Part shown: piece after piece, positions 106-21,428 of the stretch
Layout of the letters: every line of letters begins with the position of its first letter
Position numbering within the stretch: the first letter of the stretch is position 1
Notes under the pieces: generated by a model
The model's database searches: none
Told to the model about the DNA's origin: nothing
The model's input: the letters and a program-made list of their open reading frames with translations, nothing else
Source: an uncultured Monoglobus sp.
Lineage (GTDB): Bacteria; Bacillota; Clostridia; Monoglobales; Monoglobaceae
Assembly: GCA_947630505.1 (NCBI GenBank)
Contig: CANRHV010000031.1
Span: 1-33,805, forward strand
Reading direction: 5' to 3'
Length of the DNA: 33,805 nt
Program-made: the position numbers and the translations under genes

Positions 106-3100
106 CCCGCAACGGCCACGCCCGTTCCGGCGACGGCGACGCCCGCTCCGGCTACTGCTGAGCCTATGGAGCCCATCGCGAACGTTGATTTCACAAAGAT
201 GACGGCCGTTCCGGTATACAGCGAGGCAAGCAAGCAGGGCTTTGTCGCGCAGTCAAGCGCGATCAGAGCGACAGGCTTTGAGAGAAAAGTCGCGGCCACA
301 AGCGCGATCACGATCGGCGAGGGCGGCGCGAGCGTGACCGAAAAAGACGGCGCGTATCTCTACAGCAAGAGCAACAGCGACGACGGAGACGACTATAACT
401 ACGGCGGACTTATATACAGAGTTGACACCGGCAAACCCGGAGCTTATCATCTTGAGGTTGAGGTTGCGAACAGCTCCAACACAACCGTCGCTCCCACAGG
501 AATGCAGGCAAGCAGACTGACCGGAACAAGCAACTGGGATAACTGCCTGCACGTTCCCAGAACGGTTTCGGCCAAGTGGAGCGGCAACGTTTGGTCCTAT
601 GACTTCGCCACCGGCGAGGACTTTATAGAGATCGAGATAGAGCCCAAGACCCTGCCCACAAAAGACGCGCCTCAGACGGTTGGCGTTAAGTCTATAAAGA
701 TCACTCCTCTCGGCGTGAATCCCTCAAGCGGAAAGCCCACGATACATATTCTGGGCGACTCGACGCAGAAGGCCTACAGCTTCAACGAGACGATCGGATC
801 ATGGGGACAGATGCTCGGCGAGTACTTTGACTCCTCGAAGGTAAACGTTATAAACTACTCGATGGGCGGCAGAGCCATGAAGAGCAACTACTGCGAGGGC
901 AGAACCATGGAGCCTCTGATCCGCGGCAGAGAGGGCGACTATGTATTCATCCACTCGGCGCACAACGACGAGACCCTGAGCAGCAACAGATTCTCCAGAG
1001 GCTCGGGAATATTGAGCGGCACGCTTGACACAAACAACGCAAGCTATCAGAGATGGCTCGATATGTATGTCAAGATGATAAAGGCGCGCGGCATGATCCC
1101 CGTACTGGTTACCGCAATGCCCAGAACAGGCAACGGCGCTTATTCGGAAAACACAAACAAGCCCAACGGCTTTAACCCCGACTCGCCCGGTCTGATGAGA
1201 GCAAAGGCGACGAGCGACAGCGGCGTTGGTCTGGTTGAGCTCTACGCCGGAGCCAAGACGTATATCGACAGTCTTGAGGACAACGAGGTACTGTACATCT
1301 ATCACACGTACGAAGCCGGCGAAACTCCGGCGAACAACAACGCCAACGGCTCGGAAGGCAAGAAGCACGACGGAACGCACTACAGAGAAGCGGCCGCCAA
1401 GCAGTGGTGCCGCATAATGCTCCAGAGCATCTATGACCAGAGCGTCGCGGCGACAGACACATACACCGACAAAGCGATGATGGCGAATTTGGTTGACTGC
1501 ATGAAAGCTCCCGTCAAGGCGGCAGCGGCGGATCCGAACCATGACTGGTCCGCGGTATTCCCCGAGATGGCAAGCGACGTAAGCGCGGTGGGCGTTGTTC
1601 CCGGAGCGACCAAGCAGACAAACCAAGCGAACTATTATTACAGAAACAACATCGAGAAAGCCCTGCAGATCGGCGCTCTCCATAAGGACAAGGACAACAA
1701 CTTCAAGCCCACTCAGACGATCACTGTAGGCGAGTTCGCGAGAGGCGCCGAGAAGGTATTCGGTCTGGCCGAGAACACGCTGAACAGCTACAGCCTCACC
1801 TATGAGGAGCTTCAGGCATCCGAAGCTCAGCCTATCGAGGCGGCCTCGCTTGACGAGACAGCAGAAGCGGCTGACGGTGAGCTTACGGTAACGGTTCAGC
1901 AGCCCGCAGAAGGCGGCAAAGTCACCGTATATAACGAGACGCAGCATACAACTCAAACCGCAGACATACCTGCCGGAGTTACTGCCGAGCAAATTATCTC
2001 GGACAACGATTACTTCACACTGAAGGCTCCCATAAATGTCACAGCAAAAGCGCCGGGAGCTGACAAGAGTGTTAATTTCGACAATAAAGATATTACCCCC
2101 AACTATGTATATTACAGAAATAAAAGTGACGCGGAGGTAATCTACACCGCAAAAGCATCCGGAAAACTTACCATATACGCAACATTCCATGCCGACAGAC
2201 CCGTTGAGTTGGTAAATGTTGAAGATAAGAACGACATTCAATCTCAGTCCGGCGGCGGAAAAACGAGCGGAACTTTAACTTTTAATGTTGAAAAGGGAAA
2301 AACTTACAAACTTTATCAGAGCGGTTCCGATCAAAAATTGTACGGCGTAATGTATGAGCTTGAAAGTCAGGGCAGCGAAACTTCTATTTCGGCCTCACCA
2401 AACGACACCATTAGAGTTGTTGCAAGCGCGGCTGACGGCTACACGCTGAACTCGATACTGGTAAACGGAGAATCTAAGGCAAACACAAGAGAGTATAACT
2501 TTGAAATCACCGCCGACACCACGGTTTCGGCCACATTCAACAAGGAGCCCGAACTGATCGACCAGACATTGATCGCGTCCGACGCGGCTCTGACGCGTGA
2601 GGCCATGGGCGCTATACTCTATGACGCGTACAAGGCGGCCGAAGAAGCAAACGGCACATGGATCACGAACGCGAAGGTTTACATGAATCAGAAGGGCGGA
2701 GCTCTCTCACCCGACGACCCGAACTATGACCCGAACCTTTCGTATAACGGCGGAACATATCTGCCGCTGACCGGTTGGGGCGTGCTCGAGGACACCGATC
2801 AGGTAAACACCGGACTTTACATGAAGGTTAAAAACGCGTATAACCTCGGTCTGATAAGAACCGAGGAAGGCATCGTGAGAGGCGACATGAAGAACGGCAC
2901 AAAGCTTGAGCCCACGACCGACGTAACAAGAGCCAAGGCGGCGAAAGCGCTGGTATTCTGCTACATCTTAGGCCAGCTGCCCACAGACGAGAACCATCTC
3001 ATCTATATGGAAAATCAGGCCGACAAGACCGTGGCCGACATCATAGCTCCGAATCCGGACGCTCCCTCAACGCCTTATACAAACCTTCCCGAGGAAGATC

Positions 3101-5064
3101 TGCCCACGCCCGTTCCGCCGACCGACACGCCGGCGCCCACGGATACACCCGAGCCCGTTACGTCATCGGCTCCGGTTGAGTCATCGGCTCCCGCTGAGTC
3201 TTCGGCACCTGTTGAGTCTTCGGCTCCCGCTGAATCTTCGGCACCCGCTGAATCTTCGGCTCCCGTTGAGTCTTCGGCGCCCGTTGAGTCTTCGGCACCC
3301 GTTGAATCTTCGGCACCCGTTGAATCTTCGGCACCCGTTGAGTCTTCGGCACCCGCTGAGTCTTCGGCTCCCGCCGAAACCGCGACACCGAACCCGGGCA
3401 CAGTTGTAACTCCCGAACCGGCCGAGTCTTCGGCACCGGTTGAATCTTCGGCTCCCGGTGAATCTTCGGCACCGGTTGAATCTTCGGCACCCGTTGAGTC
3501 TTCGGCACCCATTGAATCCTCGGCTCCCGCTGAGTCTTCGGCACCCGTTGAATCTTCGGCTCCCGCTGAGTCAGCGACACCCGAACCGGGAACAGACGCT
3601 ACTCCCACTCCGGGTACCGACGTTACACCCACTCCGGGTACTGACGCTACTCCCACACCGGGTACTGACGCTACTCCCACACCGGGTACAGACGCTACTC
3701 CCACTCCGGGTACCGACGCTACTCCCACTCCGGGTACCGACGTTACTCCCACACCGGGCATAGACGCTACTCCCACTCCGGGTACCGACGCTACTCCCAC
3801 TCCGGGTACCGACACTACTCCCACACCGGGTACCGACGCTACTCCCGAACCGGGCACAGACGCTACTCCCACTCCGGGTACCGACGTTACTCCCGAACCG
3901 GGTACAGACGCTACTCCCACTCCGGGAACAGACGTTACTCCCGAGCCGGGCACAGACGCGACAGCGACACCCGAACCCACAGCTACGCCCAAGCCTCTTG
4001 ACGATCAGAAGTTTGACGGCGCGGCTCCCGAGGATGTTATCATCACGCTGCCCGACACATCGGCTAATGTATCTCAGGTAACCCTCAACGGCGTGGCAAT
4101 TCCCGCGGACAGCTACAAGGTTGAAAACGGCGTGATCACCTTCACACCCGAATTCCTCAGCACGCTGCCCAACGGAACAAATACCGTTATTATCAATGAC
4201 GACAAAGGCAACGCTTACTCTGTTGACATCAACGTAACCAACACGTTTGAGCCTACCGCGGCTCCGGTTCCCACCGAAGAGCCCGACGAGCCCACGGCGC
4301 AGCCTTCAAGCGAGCCCGCCGAGCCCACAACGGAGCCTTCGGGCGAGCCCACATCGGCTCCCACTCCCACGCGCAGACCTTCGTACAGCAGCGGCGGCTC
4401 GGGCGGTTCAAGCTCGAACTTCTCAACGGGCGGCGCGACGGCAACAGCCGGACCCGCGGCGACCGCCGAGCCCGGCGCCTCAACCGAGCCTTCGGCAACT
4501 CTTGTACCCGGAAACGCGACAGTGGCTCCGGTTCAGCCCGGAACGCAGGTATTTGAGGATGTTCCCGAGAGCTACTGGGCATACGGCTATATCATGGACC
4601 TCTACAACGCGGGAATCATCAACGGCGAGACACCCACGCTGTTCATGCCCGAGAACCCGATCACCAGAGCGGAGTTCACCAAGATAGCCGTAATGCTGTT
4701 CGGTATCACTCCCGGCGGCGCCTCGACATTCGTCGATGTTGCGGACACAGACTGGTTCGCGCCTTACGTCGCGGCGGGTCAGGCGGCAGGCATAGTGAAC
4801 GGCACAAGCGAGACCACATTCAGCCCCGACGACAACATCACGCGCGAGCAGATCGCGGCGATAGTCGGCAGACATTTGAATCTCAGCTCGCAGACCGCGG
4901 TAAGCTATGGCGACGCGGCGGCGATCGAGGATTACGCGCTGCCTTATGTGGCGGCGCTCTCCGAGCAGGGAATCCTGACAGGTTCGGACGGAATGTTCAA
5001 TCCCAAGGATCCCGCGACGCGCGCGGAAGCCGCGACAATAATGTCAAGAGTTAAAAATCATTAA
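1..5064 (+). CDS. SLH-anchored SGNH/GDSL esterase, rhamnogalacturonan-acetylesterase-like (5' end missing)
   Basis: The reading frame is open from base 1 and starts inside a Pro-Ala-Ser-Glu-Ala linker, so the true start and signal peptide lie upstream. Residues are counted from base 1. Order: linker 1-55; beta-rich N-terminal module about 60-240; SGNH hydrolase about 245-475 with GDST (Ser254), NYSMGG, HND (Asn322) and DGTH (Asp457, His460), so all catalytic blocks are present. Next come an SLH-like repeat about 544-590, an inserted beta-rich module plus an InlB-B-like repeat about 600-850, more SLH-like sequence about 855-990, Ser/Pro and Thr/Pro linkers about 1034-1324, an Ig-like module about 1344-1412, and three canonical SLH domains about 1518-1687. 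The family removes acetyl groups from pectic rhamnogalacturonan. The C-terminal SLH domains imply attachment to cell-wall polymer. It is a paralogue of the gene at 8356. Family assignment is firm; substrate is inferred. Confidence 0.85.
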   Translation, partial: PASEAPASEAPASEAPASEAPASEAPATEVPATEVPATATPVPATATPAPATAEPMEPIANVDFTKMTAVPVYSEASKQGFVAQSSAIRATGFERKVAATSAITIGEGGASVTEKDGAYLYSKSNSDDGDDYNYGGLIYRVDTGKPGAYHLEVEVANSSNTTVAPTGMQASRLTGTSNWDNCLHVPRTVSAKWSGNVWSYDFATGEDFIEIEIEPKTLPTKDAPQTVGVKSIKITPLGVNPSSGKPTIHILGDSTQKAYSFNETIGSWGQMLGEYFDSSKVNVINYSMGGRAMKSNYCEGRTMEPLIRGREGDYVFIHSAHNDETLSSNRFSRGSGILSGTLDTNNASYQRWLDMYVKMIKARGMIPVLVTAMPRTGNGAYSENTNKPNGFNPDSPGLMRAKATSDSGVGLVELYAGAKTYIDSLEDNEVLYIYHTYEAGETPANNNANGSEGKKHDGTHYREAAAKQWCRIMLQSIYDQSVAATDTYTDKAMMANLVDCMKAPVKAAAADPNHDWSAVFPEMASDVSAVGVVPGATKQTNQANYYYRNNIEKALQIGALHKDKDNNFKPTQTITVGEFARGAEKVFGLAENTLNSYSLTYEELQASEAQPIEAASLDETAEAADGELTVTVQQPAEGGKVTVYNETQHTTQTADIPAGVTAEQIISDNDYFTLKAPINVTAKAPGADKSVNFDNKDITPNYVYYRNKSDAEVIYTAKASGKLTIYATFHADRPVELVNVEDKNDIQSQSGGGKTSGTLTFNVEKGKTYKLYQSGSDQKLYGVMYELESQGSETSISASPNDTIRVVASAADGYTLNSILVNGESKANTREYNFEITADTTVSATFNKEPELIDQTLIASDAALTREAMGAILYDAYKAAEEANGTWITNAKVYMNQKGGALSPDDPNYDPNLSYNGGTYLPLTGWGVLEDTDQVNTGLYMKVKNAYNLGLIRTEEGIVRGDMKNGTKLEPTTDVTRAKAAKALVFCYILGQLPTDENHLIYMENQADKTVADIIAPNPDAPSTPYTNLPEEDLPTPVPPTDTPAPTDTPEPVTSSAPVESSAPAESSAPVESSAPAESSAPAESSAPVESSAPVESSAPVESSAPVESSAPVESSAPAESSAPAETATPNPGTVVTPEPAESSAPVESSAPGESSAPVESSAPVESSAPIESSAPAESSAPVESSAPAESATPEPGTDATPTPGTDVTPTPGTDATPTPGTDATPTPGTDATPTPGTDATPTPGTDVTPTPGIDATPTPGTDATPTPGTDTTPTPGTDATPEPGTDATPTPGTDVTPEPGTDATPTPGTDVTPEPGTDATATPEPTATPKPLDDQKFDGAAPEDVIITLPDTSANVSQVTLNGVAIPADSYKVENGVITFTPEFLSTLPNGTNTVIINDDKGNAYSVDINVTNTFEPTAAPVPTEEPDEPTAQPSSEPAEPTTEPSGEPTSAPTPTRRPSYSSGGSGGSSSNFSTGGATATAGPAATAEPGASTEPSATLVPGNATVAPVQPGTQVFEDVPESYWAYGYIMDLYNAGIINGETPTLFMPENPITRAEFTKIAVMLFGITPGGASTFVDVADTDWFAPYVAAGQAAGIVNGTSETTFSPDDNITREQIAAIVGRHLNLSSQTAVSYGDAAAIEDYALPYVAALSEQGILTGSDGMFNPKDPATRAEAATIMSRVKNH
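3166..3585 (+). repeat. 18-bp coding tandem repeat (Glu-Ser-Ser-Ala-Pro-Val/Ala)
   Basis: Two blocks of a six-residue repeat, interrupted around 3380-3420 by a Thr/Pro-rich stretch, form a long extended linker. The high Ser and Pro content is typical of wall-spanning, possibly O-glycosylated stalks. Such a region is prone to length change by slippage, and short-read assemblies may get its length wrong. Confidence 0.9.
3586..3966 (+). repeat. 24-bp coding tandem repeat (Gly-Thr-Asp-Ala/Val-Thr-Pro-Thr/Glu-Pro)
   Basis: About fifteen copies of an eight-residue unit follow the Ser/Pro block directly. Units alternate Ala and Val at position 4 and Thr and Glu at position 7. This is a second type of stalk between the enzymatic part and the Ig-like and SLH modules. 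Confidence 0.9.
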
Positions 5065-5106: not shown

Positions 5107-5258
5107 CTAATCACTATTCACTAATCGCTAATCCCTACGTTGACACCTCATCCGACTTTTTGCCCGAATGGGCAAAAACCCACCTTCCCCTCAAGGGGAA
5201 GGCAAAAAAGGCTTCCCCTTGAGGGGAAGCTGTCAGACGAAGTCTGACTGATGAGGTG
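5107..5258. repeat. MITE-like repeat, copy 1 (7-bp strings plus 115-bp core)
   Basis: Heptamers of the form CTAATCN run at about 5107-5138 and lead into a 115-bp core at 5144-5258 bounded by CACCTCATC and GATGAGGTG. Inside are nested hairpins: TTTTTGCCC/GGGCAAAAA, CTTCCCCT/AGGGGAAG twice in opposite order, and GTCAGAC/GTCTGAC. The core has the same length and order as copy 3 at 15542-15656. There is no coding capacity. Confidence 0.85.
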
Positions 5259-5280: not shown

Positions 5281-5354
5281 CCTACGACCATGGTGCGTAA
5301 AATGTCGTAGGGGCGGACGACCCCGGCCGCCCGGCTCTCCCCAAGGGGCGAGCC
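5281..5354. repeat. GTAGGGGCGG palindromic repeat, intergenic copy
   Basis: CCCTACGAC (5281-5289) pairs with GTCGTAGGG (5305-5313). It is followed by GGGGCGG...CCGCCCG and a CTCTCCCCAAGGGGCGAG palindrome ending near 5354. The same unit lies inside the coding frame at 13900-13953 and 14536-14694. Confidence 0.8.
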
Positions 5355-12627: not shown

Positions 12628-12811
12628 CGATTAGGGACTAGGAAACACCTCATCAGTCTGCTTCCCCTCAAGGGGAAGCCTTTTTCTGCCTTCCCCTTGA
12701 GGGGCCGCCTTTTTTGCCTTCCCCTTGAGGGGAAGGTGGGTTTTTGCCCGAAAGGGCAAAAAGTCGGATGAGGTGTTCCCTAGTCCCTAGATCCTATTCC
12801 CTAGTCCCTAC
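12622..12811. repeat. MITE-like repeat, copy 2 (reverse orientation)
   Basis: Core 12646-12775 is bounded by CACCTCATC and GATGAGGTG. The TTTTTGCCC hairpin is at the right-hand end, so orientation is opposite to copies 1 and 3, and an extra CTTCCCCT/AGGGG unit is present. Heptamer strings flank both sides. The left string contains the TAG stop codon of the upstream gene (12625-12627). No separate terminator for that gene is visible, so these hairpins may serve. Confidence 0.85.
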
Positions 12812-12833
12812 GTTGTCACTACTTGTCACTTCT

Positions 12834-12857: not shown

Positions 12858-12870
12858 GGAAGTGATTTTT

Positions 12871-13410
12871 TTGATTGACTTCAAAACTCTCAAATCGACG
12901 GCGCGTATCGAGGACCTGGCTCGGCTGTTCGGCGGGGTGCCCGACAGGCGCGGAATGTGCCGCTGCGTGCTGCACGACGACAAGACGCCCAGCATGAAGA
13001 TCGACGCCGAAAAGCAGCTGTTTTACTGCTTCGGCTGCGGCGCGGGCGGCGATATAATAACTCTGGCGCAGCTGCACGAGGGCTTGAGCGCGCCCGAAGC
13101 GGCGAGGTTTATTGACTGCGCCCTCGGCCTCGGCCTTGACCGGGATATATCCGACGCCGAACGGCGCGACACAATGCTTCGAGCCAAAAAGCGGCATTAT
13201 TGGGAAATGCTCAAACGCGACGAGGAAGCCGAAAAACAAAAGCGGCTTTACTCCGAGCTGTGCGGCGAAATGCACCGCCTCAGAGAGGCGATGAACGCCG
13301 AGCCGCCAAACGACAAAAAAGCCGAGTTGGCAGAAAAGCTCAACAGGGTCGAGTACCTTATAAACTTGATCGAAATTAACTGTTTCGGAGGTGAAAATAA
13401 TGACCGATAA
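12871..13410 (+). CDS. CHC2 zinc-finger (DnaG-type primase N-terminal domain) protein
   Basis: 179 residues from a TTG start at 12871, chosen because AAGGAAG ends 8 nt upstream; the GTG at 12862 overlaps that site. Residues 1-95 resemble the zinc-binding domain of DnaG primase, with Cys32, His35, Cys53 and Cys56 in the pattern C-x2-H...C-x2-C, plus KTPSM and CFGCGAGGD. No TOPRIM catalytic domain follows; the remainder is charged and helical (about 110-179). Free-standing CHC2 proteins of this size usually belong to phage- or element-type replication modules, and here the gene is coupled by an 11-nt overlap to a DUF927 ATPase. It probably helps prime or recruit the helicase; this role is inferred. 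Confidence 0.82.
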   Translation: MIDFKTLKSTARIEDLARLFGGVPDRRGMCRCVLHDDKTPSMKIDAEKQLFYCFGCGAGGDIITLAQLHEGLSAPEAARFIDCALGLGLDRDISDAERRDTMLRAKKRHYWEMLKRDEEAEKQKRLYSELCGEMHRLREAMNAEPPNDKKAELAEKLNRVEYLINLIEINCFGGENNDR

Positions 13411-15289
13411 AAATTATATTAAAAATTTAATATCCGAGATCATGGAAAACAGCGGCGACAACGAGACCGAGTTTGAGGGTCAGCCCCTAAAGCTGCGCTG
13501 CGGCGAGTGGACCGCGGACGAGAGCGGCGCGCGCCTTGAGTATATCGACAGCCGCGGAGCCTTTATAAAAAGAATTGCCTCGACCGTGCCGATCATGCCG
13601 ACCGCGCTGCTGTACGATCCCGAGACCGAGCTTGCCTCGGTGGAGCTCAAGACGCGCGTCCGCGGCAGGTGGCGCGCCGTGATATGTCCGCGCTCTCAGA
13701 TCTCAAGCGCGGTGAAGATAGTGCAGCTGGCCGACAAGGGTATAGAGGTCACGAGCGAGAGCGCGGCGAATTTGGTGAAATTTCTGGCCGAGGTGATAAG
13801 CCTTAATCCCGACAGGATACCCGAGCGAAAAACGGTCTCCCGCCTGGGTTGGTTCGACGGCGACTTTTTGCCGTACGCCGCGTCCGCCTCGCATAACGCC
13901 GTAGGGGCGGACGACCCCGGCCGCCCGTCTGCCTCGCCCCAAGGGGCGAGCCTATTTTCGGTACACATCAACGCGGGGGACAACAAACACCTGCTCGAGC
14001 CGGTGCGCGAAAACGGCTCCCTCGAAAAATGGGTATCGGGCATGGGTAAATACCGCGAAAGCCTCGCGTTCCGCCTGATGATGGGCGCGTCGTTCGCCTC
14101 GCCGCTTCTGGAGCCGCTGAACCTGCAGCCCTTCGTTTTCCACCTTTGGGGCCCGACGGGCTGCGGCAAGACATTGACGCTGCAGGCGGCGATGTCGGTC
14201 TGGGGCGACCCGAGGATAGGCGGCATGACCAAAACCATGAACATGACGACAAACGCCATGCTCAGCACATCGGCGTTTTTGCGCAATCTGCCCTTCGGAG
14301 GCGACGAGCTTCAGATAATCAAGAACAGGCGCGAGAACTACGACCGCCTTATCATGAGCTGCACCGAGGGCATGGACCGCGCGAGAATGACATACTCAAG
14401 CCTCAACAGGACGCGGACATGGCGGTGCGCGTTTCTGTTCACCGGAGAGGAACCCTGCGTGGACACGTCGTCGGGCGGCGGCGCCGTCAACCGAGTGATA
14501 TGCGTTAACGCCGCCGCGTCAGCCTCGCAAAATACCGTAGGGGCGGACGACCCCGGCCGCCCGTCTGCCTCGCCCCTTGGGGAGAGGTGGATTTCCGCCG
14601 GCGGCGGAAAGACGGAGAGGGGTCAACGATGTGATTCGGAACACAAACCCCTCTCAGTCAGCTACGCTGACAGCTCTCCCCAAGGGGCGAGCCTTTCTTC
14701 TGTTCCCTACCCCGCGGAACTGGCGGGGCTGTTTTCCGAAAACTACGGCTCGGCGGGGCGGCGGTTCATTGAGGAATACCAAAAGGAGCCGAACTTCGCG
14801 AAGATGATCTACGACGAGTATTTCCAAAAGCTAATCCGTCTCGACGCCACGGGCAAGCAGACCTCGGCAATGGCGGCTATCCTGACGGGCGACAGCCTGG
14901 CCTGCCGATACCTTTTTAAAGACGAACAGCCGATATCGGCCGAGACAGCCGCGCGGTTTATGAAGTCGGACAGCGCGGTCAGCGTCGCGAAGCGGGCGCG
15001 GGAATTCACCGAAGGCCTTATCGCCGCCAACATCAACATGTTCTCGCCGAGCAATATAAGCCGCGAAATATGGGGCAAGATAGACGACAACGCGGTGCTT
15101 ATCAACAAAACGATACTCTGCCGCGAACTTAAAAACGAAGGATATACCTTCGAGGCCGTGAAATCCGAATGGGCAAACGACGGATTTTTGGTGAGGAACC
15201 CCGACGGAAGGTTTGACCATTGTACCAGTTGCTATGGCACGAAGGCAAGATATATAAAATTGCAAAATGATTATAATTCAATCGAATAA
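13400..15289 (+). CDS. DUF927-type replicative ATPase/helicase with two in-frame repeat insertions
   Basis: 629 residues from ATG 13400 (GGAGGTGA 5 nt upstream; the GTG at 13391 lies in that site). The frame overlaps the upstream stop by 11 nt. Walker A is GPTGCGKT (residues 251-258), and an acidic GGDE (Asp302, Glu303) fits Walker B. Flanking sequence (LGWFDG, TAMLS-like TNAMLST, ENYGSAGRRFIE) resembles DUF927 proteins of mobile elements and phages. Two stretches do not belong to the family: about residues 160-190 and 370-440. Both contain [13 protein letters not shown] and are encoded by copies of the palindromic intergenic repeat. They sit before and after the ATPase core, probably in loops, and leave the motifs intact. 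Whether the protein is functional is unknown. Confidence 0.78.
   Translation: MTDKNYIKNLISEIMENSGDNETEFEGQPLKLRCGEWTADESGARLEYIDSRGAFIKRIASTVPIMPTALLYDPETELASVELKTRVRGRWRAVICPRSQISSAVKIVQLADKGIEVTSESAANLVKFLAEVISLNPDRIPERKTVSRLGWFDGDFLPYAASASHNAVGADDPGRPSASPQGASLFSVHINAGDNKHLLEPVRENGSLEKWVSGMGKYRESLAFRLMMGASFASPLLEPLNLQPFVFHLWGPTGCGKTLTLQAAMSVWGDPRIGGMTKTMNMTTNAMLSTSAFLRNLPFGGDELQIIKNRRENYDRLIMSCTEGMDRARMTYSSLNRTRTWRCAFLFTGEEPCVDTSSGGGAVNRVICVNAAASASQNTVGADDPGRPSASPLGERWISAGGGKTERGQRCDSEHKPLSVSYADSSPQGASLSSVPYPAELAGLFSENYGSAGRRFIEEYQKEPNFAKMIYDEYFQKLIRLDATGKQTSAMAAILTGDSLACRYLFKDEQPISAETAARFMKSDSAVSVAKRAREFTEGLIAANINMFSPSNISREIWGKIDDNAVLINKTILCRELKNEGYTFEAVKSEWANDGFLVRNPDGRFDHCTSCYGTKARYIKLQNDYNSIE
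13900..13953 (+). repeat. Palindromic repeat inserted in frame in the DUF927 gene, copy A (54 bp)
   Basis: CGTAGGGGCGG...CCGCCCG followed by CTCGCCCCAAGGGGCGAG, matching the intergenic copy at 5307-5354. The length is 54 bp (18 codons), so frame is kept. The preceding 20 bp (GCCGCGTCCGCCTCGCA) also match copy B, so the inserted unit may begin near 13877. Confidence 0.85.
14536..14694 (+). repeat. Palindromic repeat inserted in frame in the DUF927 gene, copy B (159 bp composite)
   Basis: This starts like copy A up to CTCGCCCC. It then holds about 105 extra bases bounded by TTGGGGAGAG and CTCTCCCCAA, with inner hairpins TTTCCGCC/GGCGGAAA and GTCAGCTACGCTGAC, and ends in the same AAGGGGCGAGCCT. 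The 159 bp equal 53 codons. The reading used by the gene has no stop through the whole insert. Confidence 0.85.
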
Positions 15290-15483: not shown

Positions 15484-15694
15484 GGACTAGGGGATAGCGT
15501 CGGCCTAGTCCCTAGTACCTATTCCCTAGTCCCTACGTTGACACCTCATCCGACTTTTTGCCCGTTCGGGCAAAAACCCACCTTCCCCTCAAGGGGAAGG
15601 CAATAAAGGCTTCCCCTTGAGGGGAAGCTGTCAAGCGGAGCTTGACTGATGAGGTGGGAACGTAGGGACTAGATATTAGTAACTAGGGACTAGG
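15484..15694. repeat. MITE-like repeat, copy 3 with 25-bp terminal inverted repeats
   Basis: The terminal inverted repeats at 15526-15550 and 15648-15672 match at 23 of 25 positions, from CTAGTCCCTACGTT to CACCTCATC. The core 15542-15656 is 115 bp, as in copy 1. Heptamer strings extend outward on both sides (from about 15484 and to about 15694). Together with the next tandem repeat and the short repeats before it, this accounts for most of the 650-bp gene-free stretch 15290-15940. Confidence 0.88.
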
Positions 15695-15717: not shown

Positions 15718-15941
15718 GCCAGCTCTCCGCAGGGGGCGAGCCTAACCCTACGTTCGCGGGAATATGCGAATGAATTTCGCCAAATCATCTCCGCGTAATC
15801 ACTATTCGCTAATCACTAATCACTACGTTGCCAGCTCTCCCCAAGGGGCGAGCCTAACCCTGCGTTCGCGGGAATATGCGAATGAATTTCGCCAAATCAT
15901 CTCCGCGTAATCGCTATTCGCTAATCACTAATCACTACGTT
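15718..15941. repeat. 112-bp direct tandem repeat, two copies
   Basis: 15718-15829 and 15830-15941 are near-identical. Each consists of GCCAGCTCTCC.../GGGGCGAGCC, the ACGTTCGCGGGAATATGCG unit and a heptamer string ending CACTACGTT. The second copy ends on the first base of the reversed stop codon of the P-type ATPase. Confidence 0.9.
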
Positions 15942-18049
15942 TATTTTTTGAACAACATTCTGACGGAGTTCAGGATGCAGAGCATGGCTACGCCGGTGTC
16001 GGCGAATACCGCGAGCCACATGTTTGAGTAGATGCCCGTGATTCCCAGTATCATGACCGCTATTTTTATCGCCAGGGCGAACACCACGTTCTCTCTCGCA
16101 ATGCGGGCAGTGCTTTTTGAAATCGCGATCGATTCGGGCACCGCCTCGGGGTTTGAGCCCATGAACACCACGTCGGCGGCCTCGATGGCTGCGTCGGCTC
16201 CGCTTCCCATAGCGGCTCCCACGTCCGCTCCCGCCAGGACTGGCGCGTCGTTTATGCCGTCTCCCACGAACATGACGCTGCCGCTCTCGGCGCGTATCTC
16301 GCGCAGCTTGTTGAGCTTGTCGGTTGGCAAAAGCTCTGCGTAGGCCTTCTCGATTCCCGTTTGATTAGCGACCGCCTCGGCGGCCGATCGGGCGTCTCCC
16401 GTGAGCATGGCGGTTCTTATTCCGCCGCGACTCAGCTCCGCCACCGCCTCGGCAGCTCCCGACTTCACTGCGTCGGCGACCGTTACGCGGCCGACATATT
16501 TGCCGCCCGAGGCTATATAAACCGTTGTGCCCGTATTCGCGGAACCCGAGGCGCACTCGACGCCGTTTTCGGAAAGCAGCTTATCGCTGCCGACCAAAGT
16601 CTCAACGCCGTCTATGACCGCCTTTATGCCTTTGCCCGAAATCTCGCTGACCGATTCGGGGCGGCTCGGCTCTATCCCGCGCTCCCGCGCCTCGGAAACT
16701 ATGCTTATGCCTATCGGGTGGGTGGAATCAAGCTCGGCCGAGGCCGCGAGGGCCAGGATCGTTTTTTCGTCGAGCGAGCCTTCAATATCTCGCACCGCGA
16801 ATCTACCCTCGGTGACCGTGCCTGTTTTGTCCATGACAACGGCCTTTATGTTCGCAAGCTGCTCCATGACGATGCCGCCCTTGAATAATATTCCCGACTT
16901 TGACGCTCGGCCTATGCCGCAGAAAAACGCCAGAGGCACGCTGAGCACAAGCGCGCAGGGACAGCTCATTACCAGAAATGTCAGCGCGGTGTATATCCAC
17001 GGATAGAACTCTCCGCGCGTCACAAGCGGGATAACAAACGCCGTGACAAGCGCGACCGCCACGACTATGGGCGTGTATATCTCGGCGAATCTCGTGATAA
17101 ACGCGTCGATTTTCGGCTTGCTCTCGGCCGCGCTCTCGACCGATTCGAGAATGCGCGACACCATCGAATCCCGAAGCTCGCTGTCAACCCTGACCTTTAT
17201 CGCTCCGGTTGTGTTGACGCAGCCCGAGATCACCTTGTCTCCCGCGGCCGCTCGAACGGGCAGCGGCTCTCCGGTCACCGCCGAGGTGTCGATACCCGTC
17301 TCGCCCTCGACTATCGTTCCGTCAAGCGGCACCCTGTCGCCCGGGCGCACGAGGATCATGTCGCCTATCGCGGCTGATTCGGCGGGAATTGTTTTAACAT
17401 CTTCGCCGCTTATCAGATTCACCGTGTCGGGGCGCATGTCGGCGGCCTCCATTATTTTGCCGCGGCTGCGCTTGACCGCGATATCCTCGAACAGCTCGCC
17501 TATCCTGAAAAACAGCATAACGCCGACCGCCTCGGGATATTCGCGTATCGCGAACGCGCCGAGCGTGGCTATCGCCATCAGGAAGTTTTCGTCAAATATC
17601 TTGCCCCTCAGGATATTTTTCCCCGCCGTCAGCAGCACTCCGCCACCCAGCGTCAGATACGCCGCGGCGAGCAGCGCTATCTTTATCCACTCCGCCGAAT
17701 CAAAGACCCCAAAGGCGCCGAGCGCGAGCGCCGCGACATACAGCGCGGCTCCGACGATAAGCGTTATAAGCTCGGATTTTTCGTCCTCCTCTTCCTCCCG
17801 CTTTTGCTTCTCGGGCGTGAAATTTATCTCGTCCTCCACCGTGCGCGCGGTCTTGAGTATGGCGGGCATCAGCCTGTCGGGATCGTCGGCCGTGACCGAA
17901 AGCCGCATCAGCGGAAACGACAGCGCCGCAGCGCTCACCCCGTCCATCTCGGATATGAGCTTTTCTATCTTCGCGCCGCAATTTGCGCAGTCTAAATTCT
18001 CGATCTTATATTTTTTGGTGACCGCTTTTTTATGATCGTCGCTTTTCAT
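15941..18049 (-). CDS. Heavy-metal P1B-type ATPase, Zn/Cd/Pb class (CadA/ZntA-like)
   Basis: 702 residues; exports divalent soft metals across the cytoplasmic membrane using ATP. An N-terminal HMA domain carries Cys21-x2-Cys24, and a Glu/Lys-rich spacer precedes the membrane part. The ion-path motif is Cys363-Pro-Cys365, the phosphorylated Asp407 lies in DKTGT, and HP (STHPIG), TGD and GDGIND motifs follow. The last membrane segments contain a Lys (LAIKIAV) and DTGVAML...LN, as expected for the Zn/Cd/Pb subclass rather than Cu. The start at 18049 has GGGAGGA 8 nt upstream. Promoter and operator lie just upstream, but no ArsR/SmtB regulator gene is adjacent. The stop codon abuts the 112-bp repeats. 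Confidence 0.95.
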   Translation of the reverse strand: MKSDDHKKAVTKKYKIENLDCANCGAKIEKLISEMDGVSAAALSFPLMRLSVTADDPDRLMPAILKTARTVEDEINFTPEKQKREEEEDEKSELITLIVGAALYVAALALGAFGVFDSAEWIKIALLAAAYLTLGGGVLLTAGKNILRGKIFDENFLMAIATLGAFAIREYPEAVGVMLFFRIGELFEDIAVKRSRGKIMEAADMRPDTVNLISGEDVKTIPAESAAIGDMILVRPGDRVPLDGTIVEGETGIDTSAVTGEPLPVRAAAGDKVISGCVNTTGAIKVRVDSELRDSMVSRILESVESAAESKPKIDAFITRFAEIYTPIVVAVALVTAFVIPLVTRGEFYPWIYTALTFLVMSCPCALVLSVPLAFFCGIGRASKSGILFKGGIVMEQLANIKAVVMDKTGTVTEGRFAVRDIEGSLDEKTILALAASAELDSTHPIGISIVSEARERGIEPSRPESVSEISGKGIKAVIDGVETLVGSDKLLSENGVECASGSANTGTTVYIASGGKYVGRVTVADAVKSGAAEAVAELSRGGIRTAMLTGDARSAAEAVANQTGIEKAYAELLPTDKLNKLREIRAESGSVMFVGDGINDAPVLAGADVGAAMGSGADAAIEAADVVFMGSNPEAVPESIAISKSTARIARENVVFALAIKIAVMILGITGIYSNMWLAVFADTGVAMLCILNSVRMLFKK

Positions 18050-21162: not shown

Positions 21163-21428
21163 CTATTCGCTATTCGCTAATCACTAATCACTATGTTGAC
21201 ACCTCATCAGTCAAGCTTCGCTTGACAGCTTCCCCTCAAGGGGAAGCCTCTCTTGCCTTCCCCTTGAGGGGATAATCAGCAAGCTTGCTTGCGGGTTCAA
21301 AGCTATCTTTCAAAATTGCTTGCAATTTTGACCAAGAGCTTCCTTAGCGGTGGGTTTTTGCCCGTTCGGGCAAAAAGTCGGATGAGGTGTTTCCTAGTCC
21401 CTAGTTCCTATTCCCTAGTCCCTACGTT
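21163..21428. repeat. MITE-like repeat, copy 4 (reverse, enlarged core)
   Basis: Core 21200-21389 (190 bp) is bounded by CACCTCATC and GATGAGGTG. It has an extra middle part with hairpins such as CAAAATTGC/GCAATTTTG. Heptamer strings flank it (about 21163-21196 and 21391-21428). The right-hand string ends CTACGTT, whose last two bases are part of the reversed stop codon of the GT2 gene. With the terminator and the short palindrome it fills the gap 21073-21426; no gene is seen there. Confidence 0.85.

Follow-up and report, generated by a model that had tools for sequence, protein, structure and literature searches.

In-frame REP-like palindromic repeats at two sites of a DUF927-type helicase gene in Monoglobus

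Short hairpin repeats that are normally intergenic keep becoming protein stretches in gut Monoglobus. In the window analysed here (the whole stretch of DNA, 33,805 nucleotides), the gene of a predicted primase-helicase contains two in-frame inserts that are almost entirely composed of such repeats. It is probable that REP-like hairpins and palindromes entered two permissive linkers of the functional helicase before at least four species diverged from their ancestor, and that their content has since been replaced. The four congeners, together with outgroups in which the sites are empty, constitute a natural series where the same codon positions are occupied by different repeat modules. It offers a means to test how selfish DNA repeats are converted into protein, at which rate they are turned over and whether the resulting peptides are tolerated or used.

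The helicase gene and its two inserts

The reading frame of the gene ends at 15289. Translation could start at a GTG at position 13391 but more likely starts at the ATG at 13400, ahead of which a GGAGG-like site is found, yielding a protein of 629 residues. In Pfam this protein matches DUF927 (E 4e-25) and HTH_56, the HTH domain of Cch (E 3.5e-10). It also matches a phage primase/helicase in PHROG (E 2e-122) and, among solved structures, PDB 8tch (E 8e-18). The Walker A motif GPTGCGKT is common to every congener that possesses a DUF927 gene. By its domains, its Walker A motif and its homology to solved helicases, the product is predicted to be a helicase of the DUF927/Cch type. The coordinates of the gene, of its inserts and of the related features are compiled in Table 1.

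Table 1. Location of the helicase gene, its partner gene and the repeat elements in the window
Feature	Position	Strand	Basis or remark
DnaG-type CHC2 zinc-finger protein gene, partner directly upstream of the helicase gene	12862..13410	+	Pfam Zn_ribbon_DnaG, E 1.4e-13
DUF927/Cch-like primase-helicase gene with both inserts	13400..15289	+	Pfam, PHROG and PDB matches; core dN/dS
Insert site 1 (81 nt, 27 residues)	13883..13963	+	Gap in distant relatives; 95% matched by repeats elsewhere
GTAG-headed REP-like hairpin, unpaired GTAG and 6-bp stem GGGCGG/CCGCCC, read as VGADDPGRP	13901..13927	+	
Short palindrome arm pair CTCGCCCC/AAGGGGCGAG	13933..13950	+	
Insert site 2 (198 nt, 66 residues)	14513..14710	+	Gap in distant relatives and in G005; 96% matched by repeats elsewhere
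Second GTAG hairpin, core identical to the first, same frame (VGADDPGRP)	14537..14563	+	
Composite palindrome CTCGCCCCTTGGGGAGAG...CTCTCCCCAAGGGGCGAG with inner hairpins, in-frame read-through	14569..14692	+	
Intergenic GTAG hairpin and CTCTCCCCAAGGGGCGAGCC arm	5307..5354	+	

The 27-nt core GTAGGGGCGGACGACCCCGGCCGCCCG is present without mismatch at positions 5307-5333, 13901-13927 and 14537-14563 of the window and had no match in 100 shuffled windows. The latter two cores lie inside the open helicase frame, as a previous sequence-only reading of the window had proposed, and both encode one 13-residue peptide. The 54-bp and 159-bp units described in that reading are indeed stop-free in the frame used, but they are only parts of inserts that measure 81 and 198 nt. 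They have their first 40 nt in common, differ in length by 105 nt and are preceded by 25 nt that are also similar between the two genic copies. The equation of both units with the intergenic repeat at 5307-5354 holds for the core, which is identical, but not for the arm, which is CTCTCCCC there and CTCGCCCC in the genic copies. The same reading derived the long unit from the short one by insertion of a nested palindrome, and this order is probably to be reversed. In the G000 sample, arm CTCGCCCCTTGGGGAGAG occurs in 76 places and the short fused form in three; since the long form is common and the short one rare, the short copy has probably arisen by collapse of a long one.

Only one of the six frames of the composite palindrome is open, and it is the frame in use. 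In the alignment, site 1 separates the N-terminal region from the AAA+ core; it lies past the GWF-FLPY strand, and Walker A is reached about 85 residues further on. Site 2 directly follows NRVICVNA (the NRV motif), past the sensor-1-like FLFTGEEP stretch. An AlphaFold2 model computed with eight sequences reached a mean pLDDT of 51 with an ATPase core that was not resolved, and is too poor for loop placement. The window had no match in Rfam, nor had the site-1 DNA any in the phage records searched.

The genomic surroundings of the gene are variable. In G003, G006 and G008, the CHC2-DUF927 pair is found near dnaJ-like and HPr-kinase-like genes, as judged by peptide reading. Comparison of the window locus (12862-15289) with loci L031, L032, L033 and L040 places the pair of the window genome in another neighbourhood, which suggests that the pair has moved. 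Stray C-terminal fragments of the DUF927 gene with 60-84% identity (G000:C41:7104-7214, G006:C4:52108-52290, G005:C100:389-478 and G005:C7:4621-4701) are perhaps relics of earlier copies or of a mobile unit.

Insert content in orthologous genes

Besides the host genome (G000), the DUF927 gene was found in four congeners, G003, G005, G006 and G008, each species being represented by one genome. The insert-bearing genomes are draft assemblies, some of them from rabbit-gut metagenomes. G003, G006 and G008 contain intact ORFs with inserts at exactly the two sites of the window, made of repeats that are unlike in each species. The site 1 peptide starts with SASRNAVGADIVRPSASPLGE... in G003, SASPQSVGASLSF... 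in G006 and SASSRSVGDGALDVPPASSGEE... in G008, and the window has yet another one. The content of site 2 is likewise species-specific, that of G008 including VGADDPGRP. For each of the eight inserts (four species, two sites), 74-97% of the sequence is matched at two or more other places in the sampled genomes. All eight have a length divisible by three and no stop codon in the frame used.

This distribution bears on the possibility that repeats were mis-joined into the gene during metagenome assembly. The host genome (2.70 Mb) is divided into 119 contigs, and repeats commonly cause breaks. Such an artefact, which the sequence-only reading had itself named as a danger, was nevertheless excluded because three other species, independently assembled, have repeats in frame at the very two codon positions concerned, flanked by gene sequence on both sides; its probability is close to nil. 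Decay of the gene is a further explanation: the inserts would persist since the helicase no longer matters, and the stray C-terminal fragments of G000, G005 and G006 could be taken as its debris. Yet full ORFs are maintained in five species, every insert is a stop-free multiple of three, and the dN/dS of the core among the four insert-bearing Monoglobus species, 0.12-0.14, is well below 1 and contradicts decay. The core of the helicase gene is under purifying selection, and a gene in decay is very improbable.

Alignment with homologues, the check that had been proposed for the inserts, supported their status as insertions. G005, four relatives from phage contigs and PDB 8tch show gaps or a non-repeat linker at both sites, and no repeat-free homologue has an equivalent peptide at these positions. 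In G005, whose genome contains only 14 hairpins, site 1 is taken up by a short linker free of repeats, and site 2 is empty. As the outgroups are without inserts, the inserts are derived. The common ancestor of all four species probably had them already, with replacement of their content in the time since.

The repeat family and its coding copies

A search of G000 with the DNA unit, also suggested beforehand, retrieved 29 copies of the core at up to three mismatches and none with a reversed-pattern control. With a looser hairpin pattern, 84 copies were found in G000 and 47-216 in seven other congeners, most of them outside CDS. The number varies from 0 in G001 and G002 through 14 in G005 to 216 in G010, and no obvious Y1 transposase accounts for this spread. 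The Y1 transposase profile PF01797 has no match in G000 and, among 12 genomes, matches only in G004 and G007; in G004, one of the matching copies is accompanied by two GTAG motifs, both on the same side and no further away than about 0.5 kb. In an order-wide search, 26 of 51 genomes contained a hairpin match, nearly all within the family of the host.

The three main hairpin subtypes all fold with GTAG unpaired. Stems GGGCGG/CCGCCC (90 copies) and GGGACG/CGTCCC (42) give like folds despite two compensated pair differences. In 2.44 Mb from four species, 165 of 7,828 GTAGs (2.1%) head a GC-rich 6-bp hairpin, compared with 0.16-0.28% for six control tetranucleotides, i.e. an enrichment of about 8-13 times. 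Inverted neighbouring hairpins are frequent by inspection, without formal count. The reversed direction, in which the coding linker would be the source of the intergenic repeats, could explain why the 25 nt upstream are alike in both genic copies. It is nonetheless hardly probable: the repeat is frequent in G004, G007, G009 and G010, where no orthologue was detected, it is present in other genera of the family, and a hairpin with compensated stems fits DNA or RNA rather than a peptide.

Degenerate heptamers (CTAATCACTATTCGCTAATCACTA...ACGTT or CTAGTCCCTAGTCCC...) form a second repeat family beside the palindromes in intergenic regions; in the window it is found at 5107-5152, 12780-12825, 15505-15550, 15795-15840, 15907-15952 and 21163-21208. 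Repeats of another kind are present in the ORF at 166-5064, which codes for an SLH-domain protein. Its 18-nt and 24-nt tandem arrays (3085-4029; ESSAPV and TPTPGTDA repeats) are likely a wall spacer of variable length.

Copies inside genes were surveyed in the 2.44-Mb sample, drawn from the four insert-bearing species. Coding calls were made by a home-made hexamer scorer and gave a coding density of about 0.85 (0.847). LYAVW-type protein repeats and repeat clusters inside tandem-repeat proteins were left out of the count as ordinary protein repeats. At this density, only 11 of 251 repeat clusters are inside genes. Since orthologues descend from a common ancestor, the number of independent events is below the number of copies. 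Two cases were rejected as insertions: in L241 (G009) and L043 (G000), the repeats inside large open frames proved to be upstream of a start codon.

Two families account for all 11 genic clusters. One is the helicase, with its two sites in four species, and the other is a giant surface protein of the BspA type (G000, G003). In the latter, which contains LRR_5 and CBM77 domains, the repeat modules are situated just after the signal peptide. Its frames comprise 3,960-7,815 codons in the sample, and those of relatives reach 10,597. By inspection, the same modules also occur in the surface-protein spacer of G004, G006, G007, G009 and G010; GAPSGELSGVSLTEGG and VVGDGALDVPQ are examples of the peptides encoded. 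The spacer is built differently in each of seven species (L208, from G000:C4:57372 onward, L209, L210, L218, L220, L221 and L222).

The coding copies are biased in frame and in loop. The hairpin is readable through five of its six frames by inspection, and the coding copies use one strand and one frame throughout; phase 0, giving VGAD or VGDG, was found for each of the eight GTAG hairpins that were scanned on the sense strand of CDS. In intergenic clusters, a given frame is open in only 21% of cases at 80-129 nt and in 10% at 130-200 nt. For the palindrome CTGTCAGGC-loop-GCCTGAC, 189 intergenic copies were compared with seven simple sense copies in genes. The loop measures 3 nt in 139 of the intergenic copies and 4 nt in four of them, whereas six of the seven genic copies have a 4-nt loop (GACA, GAAA, GTCA). 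The difference is significant (Fisher p 2e-8; about 1e-4 with related copies collapsed to 3 events). Read in the frame used, the commonest 3-nt loop form, CTG TCA GGC GAA GCC TGA, ends on a stop codon, whereas the 4-nt loop form is open. The 4-nt loop is a coding-specific, frame-preserving change and a compact mark of selection on the reading frame.

These biases could indicate adaptive domestication, the repeats serving as linker-building cassettes and changes in length and content of loop and spacer being beneficial. Identical sites in all four species, the restriction to two protein families, the constant frame giving hydrophilic peptides rich in Pro, Ser, Gly and Asp, and the open-frame loop form of the coding copies are in line with this. 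The same pattern is, however, expected if the sites are merely the rare places where insertion is harmless, and the free variation of content between species is contrary to a sequence-specific function. Adaptive domestication is rather improbable. A related and slightly less doubtful, though still unlikely, proposal is that the repeat pool supplies interchangeable linker cassettes for the two helicase loops and the surface-protein spacer, which would be rewritten lineage by lineage through recombination with intergenic repeats and selected for length, frame and hydrophilic composition.

According to the preferred model, ancestral entry into permissive linkers followed by replacement, the GTAG-tagged REP-like hairpins and palindromes would be intergenic repeats that move or recombine in Monoglobus and the rest of its family. 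They would enter permissive linkers, and those keeping the frame open would survive. The content of the inserts may then be replaced in each lineage, either because new copies insert or because gene conversion draws on the repeat pool of the genome. Selection would act mainly on the open frame; the peptide would be no new active part but a spacer, probably disordered, that is tolerated.

Comparison with known palindromic repeats

In-frame palindromic repeats have so far been reported mainly from Rickettsia and from some REP-rich, mostly Gram-negative species. GTAG-tagged REPs are defined by an unpaired GTAG beside a stem-loop whose stem measures 5-13 bp, with compensatory variants, and whose loop measures 2-20 nt (Di Nocera 2013, PMC3733652). 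They include intragenic in-frame copies, many of them in replication or repair genes, and different REPs have been found at about the same recB site in two Xanthomonas species (PMC3733652). The Monoglobus hairpin resembles them by its unpaired GTAG, its short GC-rich compensated stem and a loop in the published range. It is likewise dispersed, mostly intergenic and often paired, with in-frame intragenic copies. GTAG families are associated with a transposase, RAYT, a Y1 tyrosine transposase (PMC3733652); by contrast, the Monoglobus host genome is without a RAYT-type transposase by Pfam, and the class assignment is therefore limited to 'REP-like'. Firmicutes and Clostridia are not mentioned in PMC3733652, and our literature search found no study of Monoglobus repeats.

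Rickettsia palindromic elements (RPEs) are in-frame palindromes that add peptides to functional genes and leave the gene intact (PMC10969869, PMC3733652). The likeness to RPEs pointed out in the sequence-only reading is a good analogy, limited to the mode of action, the Monoglobus inserts being in-frame palindromic repeats in a gene that is still intact. The host is different, as the sequences presumably are, and RPEs are found in many unrelated genes whereas two gene families are hit repeatedly here. The accompanying statement that the repeats form an unrelated sequence family needs a qualification, as the hairpin fits the class of GTAG-tagged REPs, for which in-frame copies are published (PMC3733652). 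QMITE elements of Coxiella burnetii, which also form in-frame insertions, are MITEs of 150-400 bp; they often overlap ORFs that have been annotated and are situated at gene ends or within hypothetical ORFs (PMC5896051). Like them, the Monoglobus repeats are small and non-autonomous and add residues to proteins.

As in-frame REPs, RPEs and Coxiella MITEs are already published, the phenomenon is of a known kind and the present case is a variant of it. Beyond the GTAG-tagged REPs of PMC3733652, four orthologues bear different composites at two sites, and the coding copies have a loop of their own. What is new here is the clostridial host, the turnover of content at fixed loops in four orthologues, the second protein family and the coding-specific loop.
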